NCBI RefSeq assembly: GCF_001306135.1
Contig: NZ_LGKP01000005.1
Coordinates: 1-64,000 of the forward strand
Length of the DNA stretch: 64,000 nucleotides
Direction of reading: 5' to 3'
Source of the DNA: Herpetosiphon geysericola
GTDB taxonomy: Bacteria; Chloroflexota; Chloroflexia; Chloroflexales; Herpetosiphonaceae
Shown here: piece after piece, positions 1 to 39,450 of the stretch
Position numbering within the stretch: position 1 is the stretch's first letter
Layout: the number at the start of each line of letters is the position of its first letter
Program-made: the position numbers and the translations under genes
Notes under the pieces: generated by a model
What the model was told of the DNA's origin: nothing
The model's database searches: none
The model's input: only the letters and a program-made list of their open reading frames with translations

Positions 1-240
1 GTGTACAGGAATGTATGAGAGGCACCGTCGAGACGAGGCGGACAACTGGGGTGCTGTGGAGGCCGTGTGAACGGTAGAGCAGACACCCGCAGAAAGCCAA
101 GCGATCATCGGTTGCCGCGCGTCGGCAGGACGCGGTGTGGCCAGAGGATGGTTGCATGGCAGGCAAGACTGGCATTGATGTGCGCTATGCGAATGAAGAA
201 GTCGTCAGCTATGGGTGATTGGAGCGAGGGCGAACAATTT
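1..240 (+). other. Probable rRNA-operon spacer upstream of 5S
   Basis: No convincing protein is seen here; the short open frames have no ribosome binding site or recognisable product. The stretch ends directly at the 5S rRNA, so the simplest reading is the 23S-5S transcribed spacer. A GC-rich hairpin around 113-147 (stem CGCGTC/GACGCG) could be a processing stem. I looked for the conserved 3' end of 23S rRNA and did not find it, so the 23S gene, if linked, ends before the window. Confidence 0.45.
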
Positions 241-355
241 GGTACGTGTCGAGGTGGTTGTGCCCCACGCTGCTCCATCCCGAACCAGGCCGTGAACGCG
301 ACACACACCGAGGCTACTGCAGCACCCGCTGTGGGAACGTAGGGGGATGCGTACC
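241..355 (+). rRNA. rrf: 5S ribosomal RNA
   Basis: A 115-nt RNA with 5S hallmarks. The first ten bases (GGTACGTGTC) pair with the last ten (GATGCGTACC) to form helix I with covarying wobble positions. The internal CTCCATCCCGAACCAGG segment is the conserved loop B/C region, followed by GTGAACGC. The length is normal for 5S. A strong terminator follows ten bases later. Ends were set from the helix I pairing and could be off by a base or two. Confidence 0.9.
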
Positions 356-364
356 ATTCCAATG

Positions 365-400
365 AACCCGCCACTGAGCAAAAAACTCAGTGGCGGGTTT
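365..400 (+). terminator. Rho-independent terminator after 5S rRNA
   Basis: A perfect 14-bp inverted repeat (365-378 with 386-399, stem AACCCGCCACTGAG) closes a 7-nt A-rich loop and is followed by the T-rich GTTTGTGTTT. It ends the rRNA transcript. The palindrome may also stop the convergent gene ending at 411, although that strand lacks a clear T tract. Confidence 0.85.
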
Positions 401-410
401 GTGTTTAAGC

Positions 411-1013
411 TTAGTTGACAAGGATCAGCATCGAAGCTTGTTGATCAACGACTGTTTGCAGCGCATCACGCACAATTAGCACACAAAACGTTGGTTCCGC
501 TTCTGGAATCGTTAGCGGTTGCAGTTCATGCAGCATTGTAACGCATTCTTGCACTGTCCAATAGCCGATTCGACACACTGTATCAAGCGCCTGCGTAAAT
601 GGCAATTGCACTGAATCGCGCTCAATTCCACGTCCTTCGAGCATAAACATCCACAATTTTTCAAATGCTGGTGAGCAATGTACTGCTAGCCAAGGCTTAC
701 TAGCCCAATAGTGGCGAATAGAAACTCGATTACTATTAGCTGGTGTCGTAATGGAATGACTTTCAGTAAAATTACCAAAAAATTCCATCACAAAATTATC
801 TACTAGGGCTGCTTGTTCGCTAGTTGTCGCGTGCAGTGCTGCTACTCCATCGTGCTCAACCTGCTTGGCAAATCTCGAAATATCCTCAGAAAACTCATTG
901 GGATATTCTAAACACAGCTTTTCAAGCCAATCCATGAACGAATCGAGCTGTTGGAGAATCAACATGCTTAGTGCTTCAGGCGGCGCAACGTCAAAATAAA
1001 CTATAGTACCCAT
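411..1013 (-). CDS. Hypothetical protein, 200 aa
   Basis: I do not recognise a family. It is a soluble, acidic protein with no signal peptide, membrane segment or clear motif. The start is well supported: GAGGAG lies just ahead of the ATG on the minus strand. Its base composition is visibly more AT-rich than its neighbours and its codon choice differs from them, which would fit recent acquisition. It sits alone between the 5S terminator and the divergent riboswitch-controlled transporter at 1305. It is probably a real gene because of the intact frame and ribosome binding site, but no function can be inferred. Confidence 0.6.
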   Translation of the reverse strand: MGTIVYFDVAPPEALSMLILQQLDSFMDWLEKLCLEYPNEFSEDISRFAKQVEHDGVAALHATTSEQAALVDNFVMEFFGNFTESHSITTPANSNRVSIRHYWASKPWLAVHCSPAFEKLWMFMLEGRGIERDSVQLPFTQALDTVCRIGYWTVQECVTMLHELQPLTIPEAEPTFCVLIVRDALQTVVDQQASMLILVN

Positions 1014-1091
1014 TGTTTCTCCTCATAAATCAATCAAACCTTATGGCCGAAGATTGCTAAGCAAAATGCTCAACTAAGATCACAATCCCCC

Positions 1092-1119
1092 TTGACAAAT
1101 GCAAAAGTATTGATACTAT
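1092..1119 (+). promoter_or_regulatory. Sigma-70-type promoter of the riboswitch-TerC transcript
   Basis: A perfect -35 TTGACA at 1092-1097 is followed 16 bases later by TACTAT (1114-1119), a four-of-six match to the -10 box. It lies immediately upstream of the riboswitch aptamer, so the leader RNA would begin at about 1126. Confidence 0.6.
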
Positions 1120-1125
1120 ATATCC

Positions 1126-1240
1126 ATACGTTCCGTTGGGGAGTAGCCACCTGCATCAACAGGGTTTGCAATCGTCAATCCAGAAGCAATTCTCGGTTGC
1201 AAACAATACGCACTGCGTGTTTTGGTCAGACCAACATTGG
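1126..1240 (+). promoter_or_regulatory. yybP-ykoY (Mn2+) riboswitch aptamer
   Basis: The leader has the two conserved parts of the yybP-ykoY class: GTTGGGGAGTAGCC at 1135-1148 and GGTCAGACCAAC at 1224-1235, separated by variable stems. GTTGG pairs with CCAAC to close helix P1. Family knowledge: these aptamers sense Mn2+ and often precede TerC/Alx or MntP-type exporters, which is exactly the gene downstream here. The 3' strand of P1 is shared with the terminator at 1231-1266, so the aptamer and terminator folds exclude one another. Confidence 0.9.
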
Positions 1241-1266
1241 CTTTGATTGCCGTGTTGGTTTTTTTG
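1231..1266 (+). terminator. Riboswitch expression-platform terminator
   Basis: CCAACA at 1231-1236 pairs with TGTTGG at 1253-1258, extended inside by GGC/GCC, and is followed by a run of seven T. Because CCAAC is also the 3' strand of aptamer helix P1, metal binding would hide the terminator arm and let transcription continue: a transcriptional ON switch. The mechanism is inferred from the overlap. Confidence 0.85.
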
Positions 1267-1304
1267 TGTCGACCAACCACGGCCTTGCAGGAGGCAGTGC
1301 AACA

Positions 1305-2267
1305 ATGGATACGATGGTTTGGATGTGGATTGGTTTTAACGTTTTCGTTTTGGCCATGCTGGCTCTCGATTTAGGCGTGTTTCATCGCTCAGCCCATGAG
1401 GTTTCAATCAAAGAAGCGACCTTGTGGAGCGTAGCCTGGATTGGCTTAGCAGCGCTTTTCAACCTCGGGATTTACATCTTTTGGCAGCAGCTCGTTCCTA
1501 CAAGTAGCTATACCAACGGCGAAGCAGCCCTCGCCTTTATGACCGGCTATCTGATTGAAAAATCACTCAGTATCGACAACATTTTTGTGTTTGTGTTGAT
1601 CTTCGGCAGTTTTGCTGTGCCAGCTAAATATCAACATCGCGTGTTGTTCTGGGGGGTGCTTGGGGCCTTGGTTATGCGTGGGGCCATGATTGGCGCTGGC
1701 GCGGCCTTGATTCGTGAATTCCACTGGATTATCTACATTTTCGGCGCGTTTCTGATTGTGACGGGGATCAAGATGGCTTTCCATCAGGAGCAAACCCTTG
1801 ATCCAAAAAACAATATTTTGGTGCGCAGCTTTCGCCGTTTTATGCCAGTAACCGATGAATACCACGAAGATAAATTCTTTGTGCGCAAAGCTGGCGTGTT
1901 GATGGCAACGCCACTGTTCTTGGTGCTGTTGATGATTGAAGCGACCGACTTGATCTTTGCTGTCGATTCGATTCCGGCGATCTTTGCAGTGACCCAAGAG
2001 CCGTTTTTGGTCTATACCGCCAATGTATTTGCGATTTTGGGTTTGCGTTCGCTCTACTTTGTGTTGGCTGGCATGGTGCACAAGTTCCATTATCTCAAGC
2101 TTGGTTTGGCGTTTGTGCTCAGCTTTGTGGGGGTCAAGATGCTCTTGGTCGAAACCGCATTCAAAATTCCTTCGGGAATTGCCTTGGGTGTGGTTGCCAC
2201 GATTATCGTGGTCGCAATTGGCGCTTCGTTGATTCGCGCTAAGCGCTTGGAAGCAGTTAAAAGCTAA
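1305..2267 (+). CDS. TerC/Alx-family membrane transporter (probable Mn2+ efflux)
   Basis: A 320-aa integral membrane protein of the TerC/Alx family with about eight or nine hydrophobic segments. The family's acidic membrane motifs are present: EKSLSIDNIFVF in the first third and EATDLIFAVDSIPAIFAVT in the second half, whose Asp residues are thought to bind metal. An open frame extends up to 1092, but that stretch is the riboswitch leader. The real start is the ATG at 1305, preceded by AGGAGG. Family members studied in E. coli and Bacillus export manganese, and the yybP-ykoY riboswitch upstream supports the same role here. A strong terminator follows at 2281. Substrate specificity is inferred. 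Confidence 0.93.
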   Translation: MDTMVWMWIGFNVFVLAMLALDLGVFHRSAHEVSIKEATLWSVAWIGLAALFNLGIYIFWQQLVPTSSYTNGEAALAFMTGYLIEKSLSIDNIFVFVLIFGSFAVPAKYQHRVLFWGVLGALVMRGAMIGAGAALIREFHWIIYIFGAFLIVTGIKMAFHQEQTLDPKNNILVRSFRRFMPVTDEYHEDKFFVRKAGVLMATPLFLVLLMIEATDLIFAVDSIPAIFAVTQEPFLVYTANVFAILGLRSLYFVLAGMVHKFHYLKLGLAFVLSFVGVKMLLVETAFKIPSGIALGVVATIIVVAIGASLIRAKRLEAVKS

Positions 2268-2280
2268 CCGTTGGTTGAGC

Positions 2281-2315
2281 AAGGCCGTGGGTTTGATCGA
2301 AACCCACGGCCTTTT
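2281..2315. terminator. Bidirectional terminator between convergent genes
   Basis: AAGGCCGTGGGTTT (2281-2294) and its exact complement surround the loop GATCG, followed by TTTTT on the plus strand; the A-rich opposite flank gives some T bases on the minus strand. It lies between the ends of the TerC gene (2267) and the metalloprotease (2320). Confidence 0.9.
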
Positions 2316-2319
2316 TGCG

Positions 2320-4203
2320 TTATTCGGCTAAAGCGTAGACCAAGCCTTGGTTGTAGTAGGTGCGTAAATCGACAGTCAATAAGCCTAATTCTGGGCTAGT
2401 GGCGACGATTGGTACTACGCTCCAGCCAGCGGTTGGGTTGGCTGGGTTGTAAACCAAAACAGTTGGGCCATTGCTGCTAAATGCGCTTGGATCATAGCTC
2501 AATTGCGCGTACAGCGGTGGTTGGTTGCCAGACCAAGCTAATAAACGTTTATCGCGAATCAAATATGGCTGAATCAACATTGGCCATTGTTTGATTGTGT
2601 AATTTTGGAGATTGTTCAGGTTGGTGCATAATGGCGCTGGTTGATAGACGGCTATGGTTGTGCCAGTAATATCATCAGCAACGTGGGTTTGGAGATCAAG
2701 GCCAATTCCGCCATCAGCAATTGGGGCATGAATTTCAGCGGTTGCTGGGCCAAATCCACCTACAATTTGATACCAGGTAGCAATTGGCGTGTTGAAATCG
2801 CTGCTATAGGCATAAATATAGTTGTGATAGCTGGCTAAGCCAGCAATTTCATCAGTTCGTAATTGGAATGTCGTGCCAAAACTGCCAGTGCTGCTAATAT
2901 CGAGGCCTGCAATTGTGCGGCACTTGCCACCAGCAGGGCAAAATGCTAAGTTTACCTTTTTACCATGAACGCCACATTCCTGGCCTTTGACCTCAACGGC
3001 ATTAATTTGCGGCAAGGTGCTGTTGGTATTGAGCATTGGCTTGATTTGTAAATTAGCAACCCAGCGTTGATTCACCAAGTTAAAGTCATTTTTAGCGGCT
3101 AAGATATTTTGGTTTGGGTAGATTGAATAGACTGTTTTATTGTGCCAATCACGAGCCAAAATCAAGCCACGATCTTGGGCCGAGGTATCAATGCCCAACC
3201 AGGCTTCTTGCTTGTTGGCTTGCAGCGTGCCCTGATCAATAATCCGCTGCGGGCTGGCTAAATCGCCTTTGATGCTAAATCCGAGGGCTTGATTATCGTT
3301 GGCTCCATTGTATTCAACGACGCTGCTGCTGCCTTTGGCGCTATTGGGCATGAAATTGACAATTGCCGTGCCTTGGGGCTGCATAATGCTGGGTGTGCTG
3401 CTTGGCACTAAGCCATAGAGCATTTCCACCGTTTTCCAATCATTTAGCCCATACATTAAATCTTGTGGCGTTTGATCGCAATGATAGGCAGTGCGCGAGA
3501 TGCCACGCAAGTTGCTGGCGCTATAGTGATACGACATCAGCGAATTATGGTTTGTCCGATTGCGTGGCATCTCAGCACTAAGGTCGTTACTGGTTGAACT
3601 ACAATAGGTATAATTGGCAGTGTTCAAATCTGGGGCATAGCCATCGTGCAGGCCCAAAATATGGTGGCCAAGCTCATGACTGATTGTTTGGCTACCAGCA
3701 ACATCTGACCAGAGGCCACAACGGGCATTGATGCCGTTCCACAAGCGGCCAAGCATAATTGCGGCGGGCACAAAATGAACCTTGCCTGCTTGGGTGTTGA
3801 TGGTGCGTAGGCTATGTTCAAAGCCGCCCAAAAAAGCCGTTGGCCGATATTCGTTGCTGACCAAAATCCGAATATCAGCATCGTTCCAATGCTCGCCATT
3901 GGTATAGACCGAATAGTGTTCAACCCAAACTTGGCCTTGGGTCGCTTGATACAAGGTTTGGCTGGTTTCTTGCAGCGCGGTTTCGAGCACATCTTGCATG
4001 GCTGTGTAGGTGAGATCTTTACATGTGCTGCCCTCAGTTGGGCGTAAAAGATCTTGTTGACCCGGCTGCCATTCGAGTGAAACAATTAAGTGAATACTTT
4101 CAAAAGGGCTGCTCGCATTCGCAGCATTTGGTTGATTTGGGGTCATCAGCAGGGTCAAACATAAACTACTGATGAGGACTAAGCTAAATTTGCACCAAAA
4201 CAT
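2320..4203 (-). CDS. Secreted zinc metalloprotease-like protein (metzincin motif)
   Basis: A 627-aa exported protein. Residues 1-28 form a signal peptide (short basic start, hydrophobic core, Ala-rich cleavage region). The extended zinc motif HELGHHILGLH at 176-186 supplies three His ligands and the catalytic Glu177, the metzincin pattern HExxHxxGxxH. The roughly 440 residues after it are Ser/Thr/Asn-rich with no family I can name, and may be beta domains for substrate or surface binding. It is a single gene facing TerC across a shared terminator. A secreted protease fits a predatory or scavenging lifestyle, but substrate and true family are unknown. I found no Met-turn with certainty. Confidence 0.8.
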   Translation of the reverse strand: MFWCKFSLVLISSLCLTLLMTPNQPNAANASSPFESIHLIVSLEWQPGQQDLLRPTEGSTCKDLTYTAMQDVLETALQETSQTLYQATQGQVWVEHYSVYTNGEHWNDADIRILVSNEYRPTAFLGGFEHSLRTINTQAGKVHFVPAAIMLGRLWNGINARCGLWSDVAGSQTISHELGHHILGLHDGYAPDLNTANYTYCSSTSNDLSAEMPRNRTNHNSLMSYHYSASNLRGISRTAYHCDQTPQDLMYGLNDWKTVEMLYGLVPSSTPSIMQPQGTAIVNFMPNSAKGSSSVVEYNGANDNQALGFSIKGDLASPQRIIDQGTLQANKQEAWLGIDTSAQDRGLILARDWHNKTVYSIYPNQNILAAKNDFNLVNQRWVANLQIKPMLNTNSTLPQINAVEVKGQECGVHGKKVNLAFCPAGGKCRTIAGLDISSTGSFGTTFQLRTDEIAGLASYHNYIYAYSSDFNTPIATWYQIVGGFGPATAEIHAPIADGGIGLDLQTHVADDITGTTIAVYQPAPLCTNLNNLQNYTIKQWPMLIQPYLIRDKRLLAWSGNQPPLYAQLSYDPSAFSSNGPTVLVYNPANPTAGWSVVPIVATSPELGLLTVDLRTYYNQGLVYALAE

Positions 4204-4300
4204 ACACTCAACTCCTTTATTTAATGCGTGAAAAGAGCGTTACACCTGTTACATAGATAAAGACGGACATGCGGCTAAATTCTTTCTGTAGGAGGTTGCT

Positions 4301-6835
4301 ATGACTGCCCTCGATGCTGAGTTTGCGCATCGCGCACTCTTATTAGTATTTGAACCGTTTGATCCTGAGCTTTGGCCGCTGATTGCTCCATCTGCACCAA
4401 GCGTCGCCCAACTTCAAGCCGCTGGTTGGTTGCAAGCAACCGCCGAAGATTGGCAGATTCCTGCTGAGCGCCGCGAACAACTCTCATCTGAGCCAGCAAC
4501 ATTGCGGGCTGCTTATCAGCAATTAATTGCTGCTGAATTGGCTCATGCTGCCCACAACTCTGCGCTCGCTATCCGTTTGTTTGCTGATCTGCGAACCTTT
4601 GCCGAATTGCTGATTCGCCAAGCGCCGCATGAATTAGCCGATTTGGTCAAGCAAATTCCTACCGATTTAGCGCCAACCAAGGCCGATCACCAGCTGTTGG
4701 AGTATTATCGGGGCCTCGCCGCTGGCCTGCGTGATCAATATGCAGAAGCATGTACGTTGCTGAGCCAATTATTGGCGCAACCAGACCTCGAACCGATGAT
4801 TCGTGGGCGGGCACTGAACTCCGATGCAACTTTTGCGCGGTATAGTGGCAATTATGATCGGGCGTTGGCCAATTATCAGGCTAGTTTTGCGCTTTGGGAA
4901 GCCCAGGCTGATCCGGTGCGCCAAGCCTATGTGCTGCTGAACGAAGGGAGTTTGCGTTACCATTTGCAAGAATATCGGGCTGCTGAGCGCTGCTTAAATA
5001 GCAGTTTAGCGACCTTGCAAGCTCAAAATCTGCTCTATCCTCAAGCGTTGGTCTTGATCAATTTGGGTTTGTTGGCCCGTGATCGTGGCAATTGGGGGCA
5101 ATCGCTGAGCCATTTTGAGCAGGCAGAAGCCATTTTGCAAGCAGAAAATGCCACCGATTTCCTTGGCCGAATTGCCAATAATCTTGGCGAATTAGCTTTG
5201 TTGCAAGGCCACTATGCGGCAGCGCGCCAGCATTTTGAGCAAGCCTTAGCTCAGATGAGCAGCCGCGTCTATCATATCGATGCCTATTTGAATTATGGCT
5301 TAGCGTGGCATGTCGAGGGCATGTTTGAACAGGCAGAAAGCGCCTATCGCCAAGCACTTGATTTGGTTGAAAGCGTTGAGCGCCAAGAAATTGCGGCCTT
5401 GGTCTGGTTTCGCTTAGGCCAAGTTGCAGCAGCGCGCAACGATCAGCATCAAGCTGAGCAACATTATCTGCAAGCGATTGATTTGATTGAGGCGATGCGG
5501 GCGCCCATTTTGGCCGAAAGCCTCCAAATTAGCCTCATGGGGCGTTGGCAACAAGTCTACGAAGGTGCGATTGCGGCCTATCTAGCCCAAGATAAGCTTG
5601 AACAAGCCTTTTTGATGGCCGAAAAAGCACGAGCGCGGGCGCTCAACGATTTGCTTGCCCGCAATGGCCAAACCAATCAAGCATTTGGCACGATTCCCAG
5701 CCTTAGCGATGTGCAACAGGGCTTGGCACAGGGCAGCCTGATGCTCGATTATATGACGCTTGGCGCGGTTGGGCCGGAGGCCAGCCTCTTGGCGGCATTG
5801 CCAGCGACGGCCAAGGCCTTGCGCAGTTTGTTAATTCAACCAGCAGCAACTTGGCTGTTTGCCATTACGACCGAAGATGTTCAAGCCTTCAATTGCCAGC
5901 TTGACCCAAATATTCTCTTGGCAACTTCGCCGTTTCAATGTGATGGGCGACGCTTTTTGCGCCCAGCAATTTTGCAACGCTTGGCTCAACGCTTGTTATT
6001 GCCAGCCCAAGCATTATTGCACCAAGCGCAGCAGGTGCTAGTTGTGCCGCATGGCGCTTTGCATCATGTGCCGTGGCATGCACTTTTGCTGGGCGAGCTT
6101 GAGCTTGATCTACCAACAACCACGATTCCCAGCGCTGCCAGTTATCTCCAATTAAGCCAACGCCAACCAAGCCAAGCGAGCGCGCCATGTGTGGCTTTGA
6201 GCTATGCGGGCGGCGTCGAACCAGCTTTGGTGCATACCTATGCAGAAGCAGCAGCAGCAGTAGCGGCGCTTGGTGGCCAGCATTATCCGCTGCCAGCGCC
6301 AAATATCGATCAGCAGCTTGGAACATATCGCATTGTGCATATTGCCTGTCATGGAGTGTTTGTGCTTGACCAACCGTTAGCTTCTTGGCTACAATTTGGC
6401 CCAAATCAGATAGTTTCGGCCTTGGACATCCTGACCAACTGGCAGCTGGATGCTGATTTGGTGGTGTTGAGTGCTTGTCAAAGTGGCGTAAGCGAAATTG
6501 TGCGTGGCGATGAGCCGTTTGGCTTGGTGCGGGCGTTTTTGGCGGTCGGGGCACGGGCAGTTTTAGTTACGCTCTGGCCAGTTGACGATGTGGCAAGTGC
6601 TGTTTTGATGCAGCTGTTTTATCAGGCCTTGCAAGCGGGATACGAGCCAGCAGAAGCACTTCAGCAGGCGATTCAACAGCTTCGCAGCATGCCCCAAGCA
6701 CAGGTAAGCCTCCCACTTGCGCCAAGCCAGCAGGGAGATTACCCGTTTGCCGATCCTCATTATTGGGCGGGCTATCAGTTGATTGGAGTTGGCAACTCGA
6801 TTTCTAAAGTTAAGCCAGCAACATCAGCTGCTTGA
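4301..6835 (+). CDS. TPR-CHAT caspase-like protease
   Basis: An 844-aa soluble protein. Roughly residues 130-400 are tetratricopeptide-type helical repeats (recurring A-x-x-x-Y-x-x-A-L patterns). The C-terminal 250 residues form a CHAT domain, a caspase-fold peptidase: HIACHG at 680-685 carries the catalytic His and LSACQSG carries Cys726, followed by the characteristic GARAVLVTLWPVDD. Both catalytic residues are intact. The start has AGGAGG directly upstream. It converges on, and overlaps by 61 bp, the anti-sigma-like gene 6775-7473, which is followed by a sigma factor. In type III-E CRISPR systems a TPR-CHAT protease cuts a protein that holds an ECF sigma factor; this trio has the same parts without CRISPR. 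The cleavage target is inference. Confidence 0.9.
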   Translation: MTALDAEFAHRALLLVFEPFDPELWPLIAPSAPSVAQLQAAGWLQATAEDWQIPAERREQLSSEPATLRAAYQQLIAAELAHAAHNSALAIRLFADLRTFAELLIRQAPHELADLVKQIPTDLAPTKADHQLLEYYRGLAAGLRDQYAEACTLLSQLLAQPDLEPMIRGRALNSDATFARYSGNYDRALANYQASFALWEAQADPVRQAYVLLNEGSLRYHLQEYRAAERCLNSSLATLQAQNLLYPQALVLINLGLLARDRGNWGQSLSHFEQAEAILQAENATDFLGRIANNLGELALLQGHYAAARQHFEQALAQMSSRVYHIDAYLNYGLAWHVEGMFEQAESAYRQALDLVESVERQEIAALVWFRLGQVAAARNDQHQAEQHYLQAIDLIEAMRAPILAESLQISLMGRWQQVYEGAIAAYLAQDKLEQAFLMAEKARARALNDLLARNGQTNQAFGTIPSLSDVQQGLAQGSLMLDYMTLGAVGPEASLLAALPATAKALRSLLIQPAATWLFAITTEDVQAFNCQLDPNILLATSPFQCDGRRFLRPAILQRLAQRLLLPAQALLHQAQQVLVVPHGALHHVPWHALLLGELELDLPTTTIPSAASYLQLSQRQPSQASAPCVALSYAGGVEPALVHTYAEAAAAVAALGGQHYPLPAPNIDQQLGTYRIVHIACHGVFVLDQPLASWLQFGPNQIVSALDILTNWQLDADLVVLSACQSGVSEIVRGDEPFGLVRAFLAVGARAVLVTLWPVDDVASAVLMQLFYQALQAGYEPAEALQQAIQQLRSMPQAQVSLPLAPSQQGDYPFADPHYWAGYQLIGVGNSISKVKPATSAA

Positions 6836-7473
6836 ACATCGCTAAAGACTGCTTCGCCCCAAACATCGGTTTCGCTGCTTTGGCGGCCTGAGGCAGCGAT
6901 TAAATGTACGCCAATTTGAGCCAAATCGGGCCATTCGCGGTCGTGGAGTTGCACTTGCACCCGCACGCGGCAAACATTTGCTTCTGCAGGATAAATTGCC
7001 AAATTGATCTCGCGCAATGGCTGAATACTTGGCGTGAAGGTCAATTGCAATGGCTGATTAGTTGCGCCGCGCAAGGCTGGTTGGGCTGGTTGCAACGCTG
7101 CAAAGCCATCGAGCAAGCTTTGATTGAGGCTGATTTGAATGTTTTTGCCTACCAAGGCTAGAGCAGCAGCAACCCGCTCGTACCAACTTGGCGCTTGTTG
7201 CAAAAAGCCTAAATCTGGTGTTGGCACTGGCAAATCATTGTCCACAGCGCTAAACGAGCGATCGAGCGCCGCGAAATATTCTGCGCAACTGACGCATGCA
7301 TCTAAGTGTTGTTGAATGCTGGGTGGTAAGTGTTGTTGGGCGATCTGCTGGTTGCGCTCAGCATAGATGGCCAGTTGATCGCAGCATGTGTCGCATGCAT
7401 GCTGATCAACTGGTGCGACCAGGGTTTGTACCAAATGCTGCATGGCATTCTGGCTCCAGTTTGCTTGATTCAT
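6775..7473 (-). CDS. Zinc-finger anti-sigma-factor-like protein
   Basis: A 232-aa protein encoded 61 bp downstream of the sigma factor gene. Its first 70 residues match the zf-HC2 pattern of ZAS anti-sigma factors: Cys27 and Cys30/31, then His56-x3-Cys60-x2-Cys63. Unlike classical membrane-bound anti-sigmas it has no transmembrane helix. The C-terminal half (about 110-232) looks like one or two beta-sandwich domains, the last resembling carboxypeptidase-regulatory or Cna-B-like folds. Its 3' end overlaps the convergent TPR-CHAT gene. Likely role: binds the neighbouring sigma factor in the cytoplasm and perhaps is cleaved by the CHAT protease. Only the zinc motif and position are direct evidence. 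Confidence 0.7.
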   Translation of the reverse strand: MNQANWSQNAMQHLVQTLVAPVDQHACDTCCDQLAIYAERNQQIAQQHLPPSIQQHLDACVSCAEYFAALDRSFSAVDNDLPVPTPDLGFLQQAPSWYERVAAALALVGKNIQISLNQSLLDGFAALQPAQPALRGATNQPLQLTFTPSIQPLREINLAIYPAEANVCRVRVQVQLHDREWPDLAQIGVHLIAASGRQSSETDVWGEAVFSDVQAADVAGLTLEIELPTPIN

Positions 7474-7534
7474 AGCAATTCCTACTACAACTAATCAGCG
7501 GCTTCAGCATGGAGACGCATGCAAGCGCCGCGAC

Positions 7535-8140
7535 CTATCCTTCTTCGACAAATTCGCGTAAGCGAGCGATTAATGCAGGATCGCGGCGCAAGGCTGCCAA
7601 ATTTTTGGCCCGAGTTACCTGAATGTGCGAGGCTAAAACAGGTTTTTGGGCTAATTCACTTTCGGTTTGCGCCAGCAGATCATCATTTTGCTCGCTGAAA
7701 TAGCGTCCAACCACCACGCGGCGCGAACGGGCGCTGAGCGGCCCGGCATCGATCACTTCAGTTAGGATACCGCGCAGATCATCGAGTTGCAAGGTTTCAA
7801 TTGGGGCTGCCCATGGCCCATGTTCAGCATCAGGCATGCTGGCGCGGCGGCGATGTTCAGGCCGACGTAGTTCGTCAAGCACGGTGCGGCGCACAATTTG
7901 CATACACCATTCGCGGAAGGTGGCTGGATTTTGGCATTGCCCAAGATTGCGATGAATTTTAATCAAGGCTTTTTGGGTGCAATCGGTGGTAATTGCATCA
8001 CCATCTGGGTAGGCATGCAGCATGGCGTAGGCCACACGATAGAGCATATGCCAAAGCGTCGTATATGCCTCGTGTTGAGCGAGCGAATCTTGTTCAAAGC
8101 ACGCCGTATAGAGGGCAGTGCTAGTCATAGTATCGTGCAT
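7535..8140 (-). CDS. ECF-type RNA polymerase sigma factor
   Basis: A 201-aa protein with a region 2-like helical domain (about 25-95, including CTQKALIKIHRNL and FREWCMQIVRRTVLDELRR) and a C-terminal helix-turn-helix region 4 (about 130-195; SELAQKPVLASHIQVTRAKN is the recognition part). The length is typical of ECF sigma factors. AGGAGG sits five bases before the chosen ATG; a second ATG four codons later is too far from it. It precedes the zf-HC2 anti-sigma-like gene on the same strand, so they probably form one transcript. Target promoters are not evident. Confidence 0.85.
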   Translation of the reverse strand: MHDTMTSTALYTACFEQDSLAQHEAYTTLWHMLYRVAYAMLHAYPDGDAITTDCTQKALIKIHRNLGQCQNPATFREWCMQIVRRTVLDELRRPEHRRRASMPDAEHGPWAAPIETLQLDDLRGILTEVIDAGPLSARSRRVVVGRYFSEQNDDLLAQTESELAQKPVLASHIQVTRAKNLAALRRDPALIARLREFVEEG

Positions 8141-8462
8141 CCAATCCTCCTAATAGACCTTGGTTGGGGTTACGAGGGCTGTCTTGCTACGCATCAACCA
8201 TTGGTTACGTTGCGAACCAAGCGTAGCTCACTTTACCAGTGCTCCAATTTCATACCCAATCTCGAACGAGCGACCTAGCCTAAAAGTCCCCATTTTATCC
8301 TAGGCTCTTGATTTATTGCTGAGTTTCAGGCAAATTTAACCCTAAGGGATGAGCTAGTGGTATTAAATATGCTACTTTGGGGGGATATTGGCATCACCCA
8401 TAATTATTATTTGTCTCGCTGATGCCATGCGATCGATAGCCAATCCATTCGGAGGTTCTCAC
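8141..8462. other. Divergent intergenic region, sigma factor / receiver protein
   Basis: A 322-bp gap between divergent genes, with no convincing coding frame. The only structure seen is an interrupted inverted repeat AGCCTA...TAGGCT (8277-8282 with 8301-8306) with inner AAAA/TTTT. The promoters of both neighbours should lie here, but I could not pick a confident -35/-10 pair. Confidence 0.4.
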
Positions 8463-8930
8463 ATGGTAGGTGCTGCTCTTCGGCCAAAACCAACCAGCGT
8501 CGCTGCAACCCAGGCCAAAGTTATGGTGATTGAAGATAACGTTGATAGTATGAATTTGGCCTTGTTGCTGCTGCGCGAGCGGGTTCAAGTGGCCTATTGT
8601 AATGCTCGCGCCTCTGGCGATGCCTTTTTTAATTGGTTGAGTTCGCCCCAAGTTCAACAAAACCCCTCCTTAGGAATGCTCGACCTCATTTTGTTGGATA
8701 TTCGGATCCCGCGAGAGAATGGTTATATGGTGCTGCAAAAGTTACACGTCTTGCCCGATTTCAAGCGCACCAAAATTGTTGCCATGTCGGCCTATAGCAG
8801 CCGCGAAGATGTTGAAAAGATGCGCTTGGCTGGCTTCGATGGGTTTGTGGCGAAACCGGTCTCAGTTAAGACATTTCCCGATTATATTGTGCGGATTTTG
8901 CGCGGTGAAACGATTTGGGATTTATATTAA
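8463..8930 (+). CDS. Stand-alone response-regulator receiver domain
   Basis: A 155-aa CheY-like receiver with no output domain. The conserved acidic pair lies in VIEDN, the phospho-acceptor Asp in LLDIRIP, the switch Ser in AMSAYS (Ser replacing the common Thr) and the Lys in VAKPV. GGAGG ahead of the ATG at 8463 decides the start; an upstream extension to 8388 lacks a binding site. The extra N-terminal 20 residues are probably disordered. No histidine kinase is adjacent, so the partner is unknown. Such single-domain regulators act in phosphorelays or motility control. Confidence 0.88.
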   Translation: MVGAALRPKPTSVAATQAKVMVIEDNVDSMNLALLLLRERVQVAYCNARASGDAFFNWLSSPQVQQNPSLGMLDLILLDIRIPRENGYMVLQKLHVLPDFKRTKIVAMSAYSSREDVEKMRLAGFDGFVAKPVSVKTFPDYIVRILRGETIWDLY

Positions 8931-8987
8931 ACCACTGGCTGATTCCTCACGTAGCATAGCCTGTACGATCTAGTTGGGGAATTGGCG

Positions 8988-10493
8988 ATGGATTATGATC
9001 TGATTGTAATTGGCGCAGGCATTGCAGGCTTGTCTGCTGCCGCCCTCTTAGCCAACGACGGCTACCGCGTGCTCGTGCTTGAGGCGCATATTGAGCCTGG
9101 TGGCTGTGCTTCTTCCTATCAACGCAAACGCCCCAATGGCGATCAATATATTTTTGATGTTGGCGCAACCGTTTTTGCTGGTTTTCGGCTTGGCGGTGCG
9201 CATCATTGGCTTGGCCAAAAATTGGGCTTAAGCTGGCCAATTCAGCCCCTCAACCCAGCTATGGAGGTGTGGTTGCCTGATCTGCGGGTAACGCGTTGGG
9301 GCGATGAGCGCTGGCGGGAAGAGCGCCAGCGGCTTTGCCCAAGCCAAGCATGGGAAGCAGAGCAATTTTGGCGCGAGCAAGAACAGTTGGCCGAGGTCGC
9401 TTGGCGTTTTGCTGGGCGTATGCCGCCAATACCGCCTGAATCGCTGGCAGATTTGGGTCGCTTGGCGAGCACAATTCGGCCTGAAATGCTGCATTTGCTG
9501 CCAGCCCTACCACGCACAGTCAAACACGTCTTAGATCAATATAAGGTTGATGATCGGCGCATGCGCGCCTTTATTGATGGTCAATTATTGATCAGCGCCC
9601 AAAGTACTAATGCAGAATGTGCTTGGCTGTATGGTGCGGTTGCGCTTGATTTGGCCCGAATTGGAACCTACTACGTTGAAGGCGGCGCTTGGAATTTGGC
9701 CAAAACGCTAGAACAAAGCCTGCTCAAGGCTGGCGGCGAAATCCGTTATCGCCAAAAAGTGAGCCAAATTCAGACTGATCGTGGGCAGATTGTGGGCGTG
9801 CAGACGGAGCAAGGCGAGCGTTTGCGCGCGCGCCATGTGATTGCCAATACAACCATGTGGGATCTGGCTGATTTGCTTGATCAAGCACCAAGTTGGCTGC
9901 TGCGTCACAGGATTGAAGCGGTTCCACAAGGCTGGGGGGCTACAACGCTCTATTTGGGCATTGACGAGGCGGCAATTCCCCAGGGCTTGGCCGAGCACCA
10001 CCAAATTATTGCTGATTATGCTCAAGCGCTGGGCGAAGCGAATAGCGTGTTTATTTCGTTACACCCTGCCGCCGATCGTTCGCGGGCGCCGCAGGGTCAA
10101 CGTGCCATGACCGTTTCAACCCATACCAATGTCAGTCGTTGGTGGCATTGGCGTCAAACCGATCCTGCTCGTTATCGGGCTGAAAAAGCGGCCATGGCTG
10201 AGCGCATGTTGGATACAGTTGAACTGGCGCTGCCCACAATTCGCCAGCATCTTCGCTATCAACAAATTGGCACGCCAGTTTCGTTTGCGCGCTATACCCA
10301 ACGCAAGCGGGGCATGGTTGGTGGTTTGCCGCAGTGGCGCTCAATTTCGGGCTTGTTGAGTTTAGGGCCGCAAGCTGCGAAGATTAATGGTTTATGGCTG
10401 GTGGGTGATAGTACATTTCCTGGCCAAAGCACTGCGGCAGTAACCCAAAGTGCGATTCAGGTGTATCAAAAAATTCGCCGTGCTGCTCGTTAA
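8988..10493 (+). CDS. Phytoene desaturase/carotenoid isomerase-type FAD oxidoreductase
   Basis: A 501-aa flavoprotein of the CrtI/CrtISO/CrtD group. The N-terminus has the dinucleotide-binding motif GAGIAGLSAAALL followed by an acidic strand end (VLVLEA) and the carotenoid-desaturase GGCASSY segment. The C-terminus has GDSTFPGQSTAAVTQSA, the FAD-contacting signature of this family. The start is the ATG at 8988 with GGGGA seven bases upstream, rather than the in-frame TTG six bases earlier. Likely substrate is a C40 carotenoid intermediate, consistent with pigmented Chloroflexota, but other polyene or retinoid-type substrates are possible. No other carotenoid gene is adjacent. Confidence 0.85.
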   Translation: MDYDLIVIGAGIAGLSAAALLANDGYRVLVLEAHIEPGGCASSYQRKRPNGDQYIFDVGATVFAGFRLGGAHHWLGQKLGLSWPIQPLNPAMEVWLPDLRVTRWGDERWREERQRLCPSQAWEAEQFWREQEQLAEVAWRFAGRMPPIPPESLADLGRLASTIRPEMLHLLPALPRTVKHVLDQYKVDDRRMRAFIDGQLLISAQSTNAECAWLYGAVALDLARIGTYYVEGGAWNLAKTLEQSLLKAGGEIRYRQKVSQIQTDRGQIVGVQTEQGERLRARHVIANTTMWDLADLLDQAPSWLLRHRIEAVPQGWGATTLYLGIDEAAIPQGLAEHHQIIADYAQALGEANSVFISLHPAADRSRAPQGQRAMTVSTHTNVSRWWHWRQTDPARYRAEKAAMAERMLDTVELALPTIRQHLRYQQIGTPVSFARYTQRKRGMVGGLPQWRSISGLLSLGPQAAKINGLWLVGDSTFPGQSTAAVTQSAIQVYQKIRRAAR

Positions 10494-10744
10494 TCGAAAC
10501 TATGGATTGATGATAATTTTTGATTCTCCTCCCTTCCGTCCCTCCGCTGGAGGGAGACGCAGAGGGTTTTCACCCTGTACCCCCAAATATTTGGGTTGTG
10601 GATTGTTTTTGGGTTTCTATTGGCGCTTTGTGAACTTCGCGATCTTCGCGGTTTCGGTTTTAAACACAGTATGCAGGGCAAATAAACCCTGCATACTTAA
10701 ACCTTAACTCTGAACCCTAGCCCCTGAATCCTGACCCCTGAACC
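10494..10744. repeat. Mosaic intergenic repeat block
   Basis: No gene is seen. The block contains, in order, a two-hairpin element (10527-10600; stem TCCCTCC/GGAGGGA followed by a G/C-run hairpin) that recurs at 17785, 53941 and 55138; an ACTTCGCGATCTTCGCGGTTT segment of the type seen at 23101, 25455 and 54060; and a CCCTGAATCCTGACCCCTGAACCCT track (about 10700-10745) resembling sequences at 25307 and 54105. It separates the carotenoid-type gene from pyrophosphatase. Confidence 0.75.
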
Positions 10745-11296
10745 CTACTCGGGCTTGCGGAAATTGTCGTTGTAGAGTTGAATTGAATCTTGGATGCGTT
10801 GCTTGGCGGCTTCAGCACCTTGCCATTCGCCAACTTCAACAGTTTTGTTTTCTAAGGCTTTGTATGAGGCAAAGAATTGGGTTACTTCTTTGATGAAGTG
10901 TGGCGGCACATCGCCCAAATCTTTGATATTGGCAAAGTAAGGGTCGTTGGCTGGAACGGCAAGAATTTTATCGTCGTTTTCGCCGCCGTCGATCATGCCA
11001 AACACTCCAACTGGGCGTGCTTCGATCAAGCAGCCAGGGAAGGTTGGGAAGTTGATCAGCAAAATCACGTCTAAGGGGTCGCCATCGTCACAATAGGTTT
11101 GAGGAATTAAGCCATAATCGCCTGGATAATAAACTGCTGACGAAAGCACCCGATCAAGCTTGACCAAACCGGTATCTTTATCAATTTCATACTTATTGCG
11201 TGAGCCACGGGGAATTTCAATCACGACGTTAATAATTTCTGGCGCATCATCGCCAAATGGCACATCATGCCAAATATTCACAGGGAAATCCTCCAT
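10745..11296 (-). CDS. ppa: Inorganic pyrophosphatase (family I)
   Basis: A 183-aa soluble enzyme that hydrolyses pyrophosphate to phosphate, pulling biosynthetic reactions forward. Family I landmarks are all present: EIPRGSRNKYE near the start, YPGDYGLIPQT, and the metal-binding signature DGDPLDV with two Asp ligands, then DDKILAVP. The length is normal for bacterial family I. The first ATG at 11296 was preferred to a TTG 24 bases upstream because the family starts close to MEDFPVN; no strong ribosome binding site is seen for either. Single gene, housekeeping. Confidence 0.95.
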   Translation of the reverse strand: MEDFPVNIWHDVPFGDDAPEIINVVIEIPRGSRNKYEIDKDTGLVKLDRVLSSAVYYPGDYGLIPQTYCDDGDPLDVILLINFPTFPGCLIEARPVGVFGMIDGGENDDKILAVPANDPYFANIKDLGDVPPHFIKEVTQFFASYKALENKTVEVGEWQGAEAAKQRIQDSIQLYNDNFRKPE

Positions 11297-11464
11297 ACAT
11301 TGGTTATCAAAACGGCGCAACTATACCACGTTTTAGGCCGCTTGCAATGCATTTGACGCACTGCATTGTAGAGAAATCTGCCACAAGGGGCTATAATTCA
11401 CTACGTTGTGGCTATTAGGATAGCATACAATCACGCAATAGCTTACTAAACATGGAGCAGCCTC

Positions 11465-12892
11465 ATGCGTTTTCCCATTGTAATTCAAGGCGGCATGGGT
11501 GTCGCCGTATCTGATTGGCGGCTGGCCAAGGCCGTTGCAAGCGCAGGTCAACTTGGTGTAGTTTCTGGAACTGGGATCAATGTAGTGCTTGCTCGGCGTT
11601 TGCAAGAGGGCGATCATGATGGAGCGATGCGCCGAGCGCTGGCGCATTTTCCGATTGCTGGCTATGTCGAGCGCATTCTCGAACGCTATTTTATCGAGGG
11701 TGGCAAGCCTGCCGATCAGCCGTATCGGGCTGTGCCAATGTATACCGCCGCGCCATCTGCTGAATGGCAGATTTTGAATGTTGTGGCTTCGTTTGTTGAA
11801 GTGTGGTTGGCCAAGGAAGGTCACGCGGGCGTGGTTGGGATCAACTTGCTGGAAAAAGTGCAAATGCCCAATTTATCGGCCTTGTATGGCGCAATGCTGG
11901 CCAATGTTGATTATGTGCTGATGGGCGCGGGCATTCCGCGCGAAATTCCAGGCGTGCTTGATCAGTTTTCAGTTGGCGAGGCTGCTAGCCTGAATATTTA
12001 CGTTGAGCAAGCTGGGGCAGACGACAAATTAGCCGTGCATTTCGATCCTAAGCAGATTTTTGATAATCCGCCTGCGACGCTCAAGCGCCCAGAATTTTTG
12101 GCAATTATTGCCTCGAATACCTTGGCAATTGCCTTGGCCAAAAAAGCCACGGGCAAGGTCAATGGCTTTATTGTTGAAGGCCCAACCGCTGGGGGCCATA
12201 ATGCGCCGCCACGCGGCCAACCAGTCTTTAATGACCGTGGTGAGCCAGTCTATGGTCAGCGCGATGTGGTCGATTTGGTTAAGTTGCAGGATTTAGGCTT
12301 GCCCTTCTGGATGGCTGGTTCGTATGGCTCGCCTGAGCGCTTGGCTGAAGCGTTGGCTAGTGGCGCGGTTGGGATTCAAGTTGGCACTGCGTTTGCGCTC
12401 TCGAATGATTCAGGCTTTAGCCCGGAAATTCGCCAATCGCTGCTAACTGACATTGCCAACGATAGCCTCACGATCTTTACTGATGCCTTGGCTTCACCAA
12501 CTGGCTTTCCTTTCAAAGTTGCTGAGCTAAATACAACCCTTGCCTTGGAGCCGACCTACAAAGAACGTCCGCGGATCTGCGATTTGGGCTATTTGCGGGT
12601 GGCCTACCCCCGCGAAGATGGCACGATGGGCTTTCGTTGCCCAGCTGAGCCAATCGATCAATATGTCAAAAAAGGCGGCGATATTAACGATACAACTGGG
12701 CGCAAATGTTTGTGCAATGCTTTGTTTGCCAACATTGGTATGCCGCAGCAACGCAAAGAGTATACCGAGCAACCTTTGGTGACGTTGGGTGATGATATTA
12801 AAACGGTCGCCGCTTTGCTCGAAATTCATCCGCAAGGCTTTAGCGCCGCCGATGTGTTGGAATATTTGTTAGCAGCAGTGCCACAACAATAG
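11465..12892 (+). CDS. Nitronate monooxygenase-like FMN enzyme
   Basis: A 475-aa TIM-barrel flavoprotein of the nitronate monooxygenase/2-nitropropane dioxygenase group. It starts with RFPIVIQGGMGVAVSDWRLA, the FMN-binding first strand, and carries the later glycine-rich phosphate-binding parts: VEGPTAGGHNAPPRG and GAVGIQVGTAFALS. It is longer than the roughly 320-aa nitronate monooxygenases, with a Cys-containing C-terminal extension, and so may belong to a subfamily of different substrate range (compare the enoyl reductase-like PfaD/FabK relatives). GGAG lies ahead of the ATG. Divergent from ppa and not obviously in an operon. Confidence 0.8.
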   Translation: MRFPIVIQGGMGVAVSDWRLAKAVASAGQLGVVSGTGINVVLARRLQEGDHDGAMRRALAHFPIAGYVERILERYFIEGGKPADQPYRAVPMYTAAPSAEWQILNVVASFVEVWLAKEGHAGVVGINLLEKVQMPNLSALYGAMLANVDYVLMGAGIPREIPGVLDQFSVGEAASLNIYVEQAGADDKLAVHFDPKQIFDNPPATLKRPEFLAIIASNTLAIALAKKATGKVNGFIVEGPTAGGHNAPPRGQPVFNDRGEPVYGQRDVVDLVKLQDLGLPFWMAGSYGSPERLAEALASGAVGIQVGTAFALSNDSGFSPEIRQSLLTDIANDSLTIFTDALASPTGFPFKVAELNTTLALEPTYKERPRICDLGYLRVAYPREDGTMGFRCPAEPIDQYVKKGGDINDTTGRKCLCNALFANIGMPQQRKEYTEQPLVTLGDDIKTVAALLEIHPQGFSAADVLEYLLAAVPQQ

Positions 12893-12918
12893 CTAAAATT
12901 GGCTGATTTGATCAATGA

Positions 12919-12953
12919 AAAGCAGCAGCAATCATGGACGATTACTGCTGCTT
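12919..12953. terminator. Hairpin between convergent genes
   Basis: AAGCAGCAGCAAT and ATTACTGCTGCTT form a 13-bp stem with one mismatch. It separates the ends of the gene finishing at 12892 and the minus-strand gene finishing at 12959. The T tract is poor on both strands, so the terminator role is likely but not certain. Confidence 0.6.
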
Positions 12954-12958
12954 GATCG

Positions 12959-13189
12959 TTAAGCGGCCAATGTGAGGTCTGCCAAGGTAATGCGCTGAGC
13001 CATAGCTTCTAACACATCAGTCATCAGCTTGTCTGCTTCAATTTGATTGGTTAAGGTAGCAAAGAGTACATAGGCACAGGCACAGACTTGGGTATCTAAC
13101 TCATTCGACAAGTGATCTTGGACGCTAATGCTCATGCTGATGGCATCGATTTTCAAACATAAATCATCAAGTAATTCGTATACATTCAT
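12959..13189 (-). CDS. Small hypothetical protein, 76 aa
   Basis: An acidic, helical, Leu-rich protein without recognisable family. AGGAG seven bases before the ATG supports translation. It is the second gene of a likely two-gene unit with the 91-aa protein at 13217, 27 bp upstream. Both are small and predicted all-helical, so they may be partners, but there is no direct evidence. A Cys-x-Cys pair (CACAY) near the middle is the only notable motif. Confidence 0.6.
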   Translation of the reverse strand: MNVYELLDDLCLKIDAISMSISVQDHLSNELDTQVCACAYVLFATLTNQIEADKLMTDVLEAMAQRITLADLTLAA

Positions 13190-13216
13190 GGGCTACTCCT
13201 TTTTTACTCAATGCGA

Positions 13217-13492
13217 TTAAGCACTATGGGTCAGCACTGGTCTGGCAAGCTTTTGGGTCGCAGCTAAGGCCTGAATCAAGCGTTGGTTGGCGGGAATTTG
13301 TTGGCTGAGGGTTAATTGCATAATCTTGATCAAGGCTTTGGCTTGGCGCACTTGCTCAGCAGAGATCGCATGTTGCGCTTGCAGCATGCCCATAAGCTGT
13401 TCTAATTCGCGAATTGCTGCCGCTAATGAAGCATGGGGATCGATAATTTCAGCCAATAATTGATTGAAGCGTGCTTCTTGCTCTGGAGTCAT
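13217..13492 (-). CDS. Small helical hypothetical protein, 91 aa
   Basis: Rich in Gln, Ala and Leu with heptad-like spacing, so probably a coiled-coil or helical bundle. GGAGG lies just ahead of the ATG on the minus strand. It is first in a pair with the 76-aa gene downstream. No known family is recognised and no signal peptide or membrane helix is present. Confidence 0.6.
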   Translation of the reverse strand: MTPEQEARFNQLLAEIIDPHASLAAAIRELEQLMGMLQAQHAISAEQVRQAKALIKIMQLTLSQQIPANQRLIQALAATQKLARPVLTHSA

Positions 13493-13591
13493 TGCGTTTC
13501 CTCCGCTAAACCATCGAATTCTGTTGCTACTCTATATAGATGCAGAAACAGGCTTTTTTTTGCATGCTGCAATCAATTTCGGCAAAATTGG

Positions 13592-14524
13592 CTAAATTGG
13601 AGATTTTACGAGGTTTGCTAATGCTTCAGGCCAGCTTGGATACTCAAAACAAAACCCATGCTCAAGCAAGCGTTGGGGCATAACATTGCGACTTTTGAGC
13701 ACTAATTCTGCTTCCGTGCGCAACATCCATGCGCCGATTTGCATCAGCGGGCTAGGGATAGACACGCCAAAGCGTATGCCCAAGGCTTGGCGTAAGTGGC
13801 GCATAAACTGCTGATTTGGCAGTGGCTGGGGTGCGCTGAGATTAATCGGCCCTTCTAGCTCTGGTTGTTCGATGAGCCACGCTATGGCATGCACCAGATC
13901 GCGGCTATGAATCCATGCGACATACTGTTGGCCATTGCCGATTGTTCCGCCTAGGCCACAGCGAGCCAAGCGACAAAGCATCTCGAATACTCCGCCACGA
14001 TCATCGCTCATCATCATGCTGGTGCGCAGCATAATTTTGCGAGTCTGCGGAGTTTTGGCGGCAATCGCCTCGTTCTCCCACGCCTTAACGAGATCAACAT
14101 TAAACTGCCAGCGTGCTGAGGCATGCCTTTCATTGCCGCCAATTGTATGCTGCGCTTCAGTTTGTGGCTCGCTGCTATGGGCATAAATGGCTGAACCGCT
14201 CGCTTGTAGCCAGAGCCGAGGTGGCTTTGAAAGTTGCTGGATTGCTTGCCCAAGCAAGCGTGTCGTCTCGATTCGCGAATGCCAAAGCTCACGACGATTG
14301 GCGGCTGTATAGCGGCAATTAACGCTCTTGCCCGTCAGATTAATCAAAACATCGCTAGCTTCCAGTTGCTCAACCCACGGCCCAAGCTGAACTGCGTCCC
14401 AACTAATTGTTGCCAGCTTGCTTGTTGAACGCCCCATAATCTGAATGCTATGGCCTTGATTGCGCCAATAGCTGGTTAATAAACGCCCGATCTGGCCGCT
14501 GCCGCCAACAATTACAATCCGCAT
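13592..14524 (-). CDS. TIGR01777-type NAD(P)-dependent epimerase/SDR protein
   Basis: A 310-aa extended short-chain dehydrogenase (YfcH/SDR39U1 type). The N-terminus MRIVIVGGSGQIGR is the nucleotide-binding Rossmann motif, followed by DVLINLTGKSV and the catalytic-region SGSAIYAHS typical of this family; the C-terminal domain (DUF1731-like) ends the protein. A longer open frame reaches 14680, but it overlaps the regulator upstream; the ATG at 14524 with GAGG nine bases upstream places the Rossmann motif at residue 1. It lies 74 bp downstream of the tandem-MerR gene, so they may be co-transcribed. The physiological substrate of the family is not known. Confidence 0.87.
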   Translation of the reverse strand: MRIVIVGGSGQIGRLLTSYWRNQGHSIQIMGRSTSKLATISWDAVQLGPWVEQLEASDVLINLTGKSVNCRYTAANRRELWHSRIETTRLLGQAIQQLSKPPRLWLQASGSAIYAHSSEPQTEAQHTIGGNERHASARWQFNVDLVKAWENEAIAAKTPQTRKIMLRTSMMMSDDRGGVFEMLCRLARCGLGGTIGNGQQYVAWIHSRDLVHAIAWLIEQPELEGPINLSAPQPLPNQQFMRHLRQALGIRFGVSIPSPLMQIGAWMLRTEAELVLKSRNVMPQRLLEHGFCFEYPSWPEALANLVKSPI

Positions 14525-14598
14525 TGTCAATACCTCGCAAGGCTTACTCAATAATGAAACATTTGTGCTATATTCAGCCTGATAATGGGAAGGAATAA

Positions 14599-15330: not shown

Positions 15331-15519
15331 GTTAAACCTTTATATAGCACTTGAGACTTTAATGAGAGATTTGAGCGTGGAAAGTGCCCAAAGAAGCCTA
15401 AAACTCACGAGACTTGCATCTATGTTCTAGAATAACTCTAGATCGTTTGGATAGCAAGTTGATTGCTGCTAACGATTCACATAGCGGCCAGAGATTTGTA
15501 GTTATCAAGGAGTCTGATG
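15331..15519. promoter_or_regulatory. Shared divergent promoter region, MerR-type regulator / UvrA-like
   Basis: This 189-bp gap must hold the promoters of both divergent genes. It contains a directly repeated TCTAGA (around TTCTAGAATAACTCTAGAT, about 15424-15443) which is also palindromic and could be an operator. I could not place a convincing 19-bp-spaced MerR promoter. The AAGGAG at 15507 is the ribosome binding site of the UvrA-like gene. Confidence 0.4.
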
Positions 15520-39340: not shown

Positions 39341-39450
39341 CCGAAAAAAGCCTTCTTTGTTGGTAGAAAATGTCAAGTTTTAAGCGTTGGTTTGAGCTAA
39401 GCTGCATCCATCAAACGCTCGATCACCGAGCAAACCAAAGGAGTTCTGTG

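Follow-up and report, generated by a model that had tools for sequence, protein, structure and literature searches.

A TPR-CHAT protease encoded with a zinc-type anti-sigma-like protein, an ECF sigma factor and a metzincin-like gene in Herpetosiphon geysericola: a candidate CRISPR-free sigma switch

Locus and gene content

The window analysed here is a stretch of 64,000 nucleotides from Herpetosiphon geysericola (assembly GCF_001306135.1, contig NZ_LGKP01000005.1, positions 1 to 64,000 of the forward strand), and coordinates without a contig label refer to it. It contains a cassette of four genes encoding a protease with tetratricopeptide repeats and a CHAT domain (TPR-CHAT), an anti-sigma-like protein, an extracytoplasmic function (ECF) sigma factor and a metzincin-like metallopeptidase. 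The genes and the residues referred to below are as follows (aa, amino acids; E, expectation value).

4301-6835, plus strand: TPR-CHAT protease, 844 aa, the proposed input protease (CHAT PF12770 E 3e-49, TPR_12 E 5e-19; 18-row family alignment)
6350-6352, plus strand: codon of catalytic His684 (IACHG motif, invariant column)
6476-6478, plus strand: codon of catalytic Cys726 (LSAC motif, invariant column)
6775-7473, minus strand: anti-sigma-like protein, zinc-type and cytosolic, 232 aa (conserved ligands, structure model, no transmembrane helix)
7285-7308, minus strand: zinc-ligand motif H56-x3-C60-x2-C63 of the anti-sigma-like protein (22 of 23 non-redundant members)
7201-7224, minus strand: linker motif PTPDLGFL, residues 84-91 of the anti-sigma-like protein, a candidate segment for sigma contact or CHAT recognition
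7535-8140, minus strand: ECF sigma factor, 201 aa (Sigma70_r2; homologues above the NCBIfam ECF cut-off; fold of a relative)
2320-4203, minus strand: metzincin-like metallopeptidase, divergent from the CHAT gene (homologue position, HExxH and Met-turn pattern), a predicted target gene

A first-pass annotation had described an intact TPR-CHAT gene converging on the anti-sigma gene, with the sigma gene upstream of the latter. This arrangement is borne out, and all three open reading frames (ORFs) are intact; the 3' ends of the CHAT and anti-sigma genes overlap by 61 bp. The metzincin-like gene and two promoters were overlooked in that reading, and they tell the probable role of the circuit. The earlier statement that the circuit lacks CRISPR agrees with the absence of CRISPR-like direct repeats from positions 1-16000, and no ORF of Cas7-11 size lies between 1 and 14000 besides those of the CHAT and metzincin-like proteins.

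The TPR-CHAT protease

His684 and Cys726 are invariant in the 18 rows of the family alignment, which predicts the His/Cys pair of an active CHAT protease. The first-pass annotation had named Cys726 together with either His680 or His684; Cys726 and His684 are retained here, whereas His680, also invariant, lies outside the ACHG motif. The protein scores 42.2 bits against the curated Csx29 model NF041237, for which the cut-off is 300 bits, and none of the five genomes searched with this model yielded a match above the cut-off. In the genome of H. geysericola the model matches exactly two CHAT proteins, both sigma-linked; the remaining six CHAT hits of that genome have neither a match to the Csx29 model nor a sigma or anti-sigma hit nearby. 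Across the five genomes, about 14 of the 18 Csx29-model hits adjoin sigma and/or anti-sigma genes. Judged by sequence, the sigma-linked CHAT proteins are mostly those nearest to Csx29 in the genomes examined, and a common origin with Csx29 is hinted at.

The anti-sigma-like protein

The ligand pattern of zinc anti-sigma factors, C/H27...H56-x3-C60-x2-C63, is retained in nearly all relatives in the alignment, and the H56-x3-C60-x2-C63 part is missing from a single non-redundant member, that of locus L095. In that homologue (L095:2667-3401) the ligands are replaced (WLDQDPGL), and the rest of the cassette is intact. The protein had been annotated as zf-HC2 anti-sigma-like; the ligand pattern stands, and the zf-HC2 match does not, as nothing in Pfam matches the 232 residues even at E <= 1. 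The profile search of the PDB returned a single match, weak (E 0.19), to the anti-sigma factor RsiW. The lack of a membrane helix was borne out, with a maximum Kyte-Doolittle value of 0.93 for any 19-mer.

The structure model (predicted local distance difference test, pLDDT, 81) runs from a helical zinc domain through a flexible linker to a beta sandwich at the C-terminus. The helical bundle, together with H-x3-C-x2-C and the upstream C/H ligand, is predicted to form a zinc anti-sigma domain. The beta sandwich is confident in the model and MATH/TRAF-like at Z 7.5, a likeness that may reflect a common arrangement only. Foldseek gave no significant match to the model (best E 3e-3). Csx30 chains were absent from the PDB profile search (E <= 1) and from the fold lists, although the fold comparison cannot exclude likeness; no similarity to Csx30 was detected at the sequence level. 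The linker between zinc domain and beta sandwich (residues 77-95) is partly of low confidence in the model and carries the motif PDLxFL, of which F90 and L91 do not vary among the 23 non-redundant members.

The ECF sigma factor

The sigma protein matches Sigma70_r2 in Pfam (E 6.5e-7), and its relatives exceed the NCBIfam cut-off for ECF sigma factors (TIGR02937). It has region 2 and region 4 and no region 3, as expected of an ECF sigma factor. The model of a relative matches the sigma-E fold across both domains, with a differing arrangement of the domains. The sigma factor and anti-sigma-like protein of locus L092 were modelled as one chain, read through the stop codon and without an inter-domain error estimate. 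The fused model of a relative matches SigW, E. coli sigma-E and SigK, and many such ECF sigma factors have been solved with their anti-sigma factors. The sigma/anti-sigma assignment is well supported. In the fused model the start of the linker motif (residues 335-340) falls in an ordered block, the mean pLDDT being 91 for residues 331-340 and 55 for 341-350. PDLxFL was considered as a certain cleavage site and rejected as such, being partly ordered in this model. A cut at the motif would separate the two halves of the anti-sigma-like protein, whether the motif contacts the sigma factor or not.

Conservation across Chloroflexota

Homologous loci were sought with an alignment of the sigma factor in one genome per species, for 84,980 species; the scan requires short conserved peptides and so misses distant relatives. 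The sigma alignment was chosen because a mixed anti-sigma alignment gave no conserved stretch. A phylum-wide search with the anti-sigma profile was swamped by generic zinc-finger matches. The scan yielded 18 loci, all from Chloroflexota. An anti-sigma gene adjoins the sigma gene in 17 of them, and a CHAT gene lies on the same locus in 15, on the opposite side of the sigma gene in L088 and past an inserted gene in L101. Whole-genome searches of the three remaining genomes revealed CHAT proteins of the same family elsewhere, as full or split copies (545-1058 bits, against at most 236 bits for the other CHAT proteins in the comparison). The displaced CHAT gene is still paired with a metzincin gene in all three, and the pair keeps a sigma-type site, exact in two genomes and in the variant form GAAAGGC in the third; this speaks for a link in trans that is functional.

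The layout of the window, with sigma followed by anti-sigma and both converging with CHAT, is present in five congeners; the closest named loci are those of H. giganteus and H. llansteffanensis. The trio singled out in the first-pass annotation is thus conserved in other Chloroflexota, and very divergent paralogous trios occur in other gene orders. A second quartet in the same genome (L035, G000:C45:198000-211000) has the order CHAT-sigma-anti-sigma, with a sigma factor about 21% and a CHAT protein 27% identical to those of the window and a divergent metzincin-like gene (HEWMHYAIGLRDQY) whose product has no obvious signal peptide. Quartets of the L035 type are also found in four congeners examined. 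More divergent sigma-anti-sigma-CHAT operons of Herpetosiphonaceae (L248, L249, L258, L259) have no recognised metzincin gene. In an order-level relative (L255, G046:C8:276000-285500) genes for an ECF sigma factor, a protein with a weak zf-HC2 match, a TPR-CHAT protein and a subtilase stand in a row, which looks like the same scheme built around a different secreted protease.

The metzincin-like gene, promoters and predicted targets

The HExxH motif together with a Met-turn is the pattern of metzincin metallopeptidases. The protein encoded next to CHAT has a hydrophobic N-terminus, probably a signal peptide, and contains HELGHHILGLHDGY and SLMSYHY. Its Pfam support is weak (Reprolysin_5 at E 0.037; CLCA at E 0.05 for a relative). 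Among cassette loci that extend far enough, nearly all have a metzincin homologue adjoining CHAT. The metzincin gene is preceded by an ECF-type promoter that points at it and reads GGAAAGGT-N15-CGTC or nearly so. The two promoters of the window are:

4262-4286, minus strand: ECF-type promoter GAAAGAATTTAGCCGCATGTCCGTC of the metzincin-like gene, 58 nt ahead of the gene start (16-locus pattern count)
7514-7539, minus strand: ECF-type promoter GATAGGT-N15-CGTC of the anti-sigma gene (6 of 6 Herpetosiphon genomes; consensus form in 12 of 15 other loci)

Sites were counted with the fixed pattern GAAAG[AG][AT]-N13..17-CGTC, and the background expectation came from the remaining sequence of those loci. 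Exactly one hit was present in the tested stretch before the metzincin gene in 16 loci, six of them from Herpetosiphon (0.3 expected); this count is partly circular, as the motif was first spotted by eye on the loci counted, and those from Herpetosiphon do not count as independent of each other. L093 also has a metzincin site, which falls outside the fixed stretch because its CHAT ORF is over-long, and L100 lacks the metzincin-promoter pattern. With the same fixed pattern, no sigma-type site towards CHAT was found in any locus tested. In 12 of the 15 loci from outside Herpetosiphon the same site also stands between the sigma and anti-sigma genes, directed at the latter; all six Herpetosiphon genomes have it there in a form that differs at one position (GATAGGT). 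Beyond the search pattern, a G before GAAAG (22 of 28 sites), a T after CGTC (20 of 27) and an overall length of 26 (25 of 27) are conserved. A shared promoter of the group-2 loci was sought and none was recognised; their sigma factor, if it works likewise, would need to read another sequence.

A genome search added a third predicted target, a protein of 385 aa predicted to be exported by the twin-arginine translocation (Tat) pathway, with Trp/Pro-rich repeats (WEPGDDLCPPWWPFPWPP) and encoded at G000:C19:55513-56667 (L154/L196). All six Herpetosiphon species retain the core of its site, and in two other Herpetosiphonaceae the homologues are preceded by the pattern as well. A paralogue in the window (39370-40566, plus strand) has no sigma site, so that only the copy on C19 has one. 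The Tat-exported Trp/Pro-rich proteins have no Pfam match. Their repeats resemble Trp/Pro-rich peptides and could be processed after export. The sites at the anti-sigma gene and at the gene for the Tat-exported protein are the better and more independent test of the promoter. Most promoter-like matches elsewhere in the Herpetosiphon genomes lie within ORFs or have no gene close downstream, and were treated as chance.

A few further sites and neighbours were recorded. L038 has two near-identical sites, at 11814 and 11941, 127 bp apart and downstream of the metzincin gene, with no clear gene behind them. In L097 a site at 9515 precedes a gene (9611-10354), adjoining the metzincin-like gene, whose product has an apparent P-loop (GVTGIGKTSLL). 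Beside the sigma gene of the window, positions 8463-10493 of the plus strand encode first a stand-alone response-regulator receiver protein and then a CrtD-like carotenoid desaturase. An adjacent pair of sigma and phytoene dehydrogenase genes has been described (PMC6210107). Control of carotenoid synthesis by the sigma factor was considered and set aside, since no sigma site precedes the CrtD-like gene, two genes off.

Relation to described systems

In type III-E CRISPR systems the protease Csx29 cuts Csx30, an inhibitor of CASP-sigma, and thereby relieves the sigma factor (PMC10028731); a complex of RpoE and Csx30 has been reported (PMC9729208). As in Craspase, a TPR-CHAT protease is encoded here with an ECF-like sigma factor and a soluble presumed sigma inhibitor. 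The presumed inhibitor differs in being small and of zinc type, and so do the predicted targets, namely exported proteins together with the anti-sigma protein itself. The first-pass annotation had called the circuit Craspase-like: the analogy is plausible, and the sigma-linked CHAT proteins are mostly the nearest to Csx29. The score of 42 bits against the 300 required and the lack of detected Csx30 similarity speak against family membership. By its sequences the locus is not a Craspase, although the cassette may, by analogy, work like one.

ECF54 sigma factors are described as having no anti-sigma factor, with CHAT, subtilase and carboxypeptidase proteins in their genomic context, and proteolytic control has been proposed for them (PMC8999054, section 11). 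The genomic link of ECF sigma factor, CHAT protein and protease is common to both. The present cassette is set apart from the ECF54 description by an anti-sigma-like gene with its own sigma-type promoter and by a protease that is metzincin-like. L255 looks like an ECF54-like case with an anti-sigma-like gene.

With the zinc anti-sigma factors RsrA, ChrR and RsiW the anti-sigma-like protein shares the ligand pattern, the weak match to RsiW and a layout in which a helical domain at the N-terminus leads into an accessory domain. It differs in being soluble, in its possibly MATH/TRAF-like beta sandwich and in occurring, so far, always alongside this CHAT family. Operons that combine metacaspase and sigma-70 genes have been reported from Myxococcus xanthus and others (PMC3501461). 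There too a caspase-clan protease adjoins a sigma factor, in a bacterium that is predatory and multicellular; the proteases are metacaspases and not TPR-CHAT proteins, and that paper never uses the word CHAT.

Proposed switch and alternatives

On balance we favour, by a modest degree of confidence, the reading that the cassette is a sigma switch which is cytosolic, gated by a protease and free of CRISPR. In the resting state the ECF sigma factor would be held by the zinc anti-sigma-like protein. A signal reaching the TPR part of the CHAT protein would activate the protease, whose His684/Cys726 pair would cut the anti-sigma-like protein and free the sigma factor; the simplest place for such a cut would be the flexible linker, close to the invariant FL of PDLxFL. 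The freed sigma factor would read promoters of the GGAAAGGT-N15-CGTC type, with the metzincin-like gene and, in Herpetosiphon, the Tat-exported Trp/Pro-rich protein as predicted outputs. The anti-sigma gene, being itself under a sigma-type promoter, would provide negative feedback and reset the switch.

Sigma-type promoters stand before the metzincin gene, the gene for the exported protein and the anti-sigma gene and never before CHAT, which places CHAT upstream and the others among the outputs; from the promoter sequences, CHAT is probably the input of the circuit and not an output. The absence of a membrane helix means that the membrane-type proteolysis of anti-sigma factors does not apply. 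CHAT is the one dedicated cytosolic protease that is co-inherited with the sigma pair and stands outside its promoter, and the simplest reading of this is that CHAT, upon a signal perceived by its TPR part, cuts the anti-sigma-like protein.

Several observations weigh against the proposal. The fused model, lacking an inter-domain error estimate, is no proof of binding, and its ordered motif start suits a sigma contact equally well as a cut site. Csx29 cuts Csx30 in a C-terminal loop with no particular residue required (PMC10028731), so the cut site may lie outside the conserved linker motif. The anti-sigma homologue of L095 has dispensed with the zinc ligands. Four group-2 loci have no exact pattern before the metzincin gene, L038, L039 and L041 have none before the anti-sigma gene, the Herpetosiphon sites deviate from the consensus, and the metzincin count carries the circularity given above.

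The alternative that fares best, unlikely as we hold it to be, makes the anti-sigma-like protein the sensor, either of zinc or redox state as in RsrA or of a ligand at the beta sandwich as in the ChrR cupin; CHAT would then act elsewhere in the pathway, for example in shut-off or in processing another protein. Zinc anti-sigma domains such as those of RsrA and ChrR often sense oxidants, and both the conserved zinc ligands and the confidently modelled sandwich suit such a role. It accounts poorly for the retention of CHAT in 18 of 18 sigma genomes and for L095, which keeps the system after losing the ligands.

That CHAT instead degrades the sigma factor, and is an off-switch, is distinctly improbable. 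This has been proposed for ECF54 (PMC8999054, section 11), whose sigma factors have CHAT, subtilase and carboxypeptidase genes as neighbours and are described without an anti-sigma factor, whereas here an anti-sigma-like gene is present in 17 of 18 loci, with the same promoter type as the targets. Very little credence is given to CHAT as a defence or cell-death effector merely controlled by the sigma pair: CHAT domains are known in defence proteins, and the PADLOC BovA profile matches the CHAT protein (E 1e-10), but no tested locus has a sigma site towards CHAT, the targets are the metzincin, the anti-sigma-like protein and the exported protein, and the other two proteins have no match to a defence family. 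Tail-to-tail pairs can persist among related genomes, and yet neighbourhood by inheritance alone, with no shared pathway, is scarcely credible given a quartet that two very divergent groups share although their gene orders differ, halves that separate and retain the sigma-type site, and a similar set with other partners in L255.

Implications

In the literature compared, the only demonstrated circuit of a CHAT protease and a sigma factor is the RNA-guided Craspase. The protease-gated switch proposed here, if true, would be a chromosomal four-gene version and would suggest a possible source of the sigma arm of Craspase. It is conceivable, although we rate it below an even chance, that modules of TPR-CHAT protease, anti-sigma factor and ECF sigma factor form a general, CRISPR-independent class of switch gating the transcription of secreted hydrolases, from which type III-E CRISPR systems acquired the Csx29-sigma arm. 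A test can start from specified promoters, predicted targets and catalytic residues and from a candidate segment for the cut. If the proposal is true, bacterial caspase-like proteases would gain a role in signalling besides cell death. Members of the genus Herpetosiphon are filamentous predatory bacteria, and the control of secreted enzymes in this predatory genus would then become testable.

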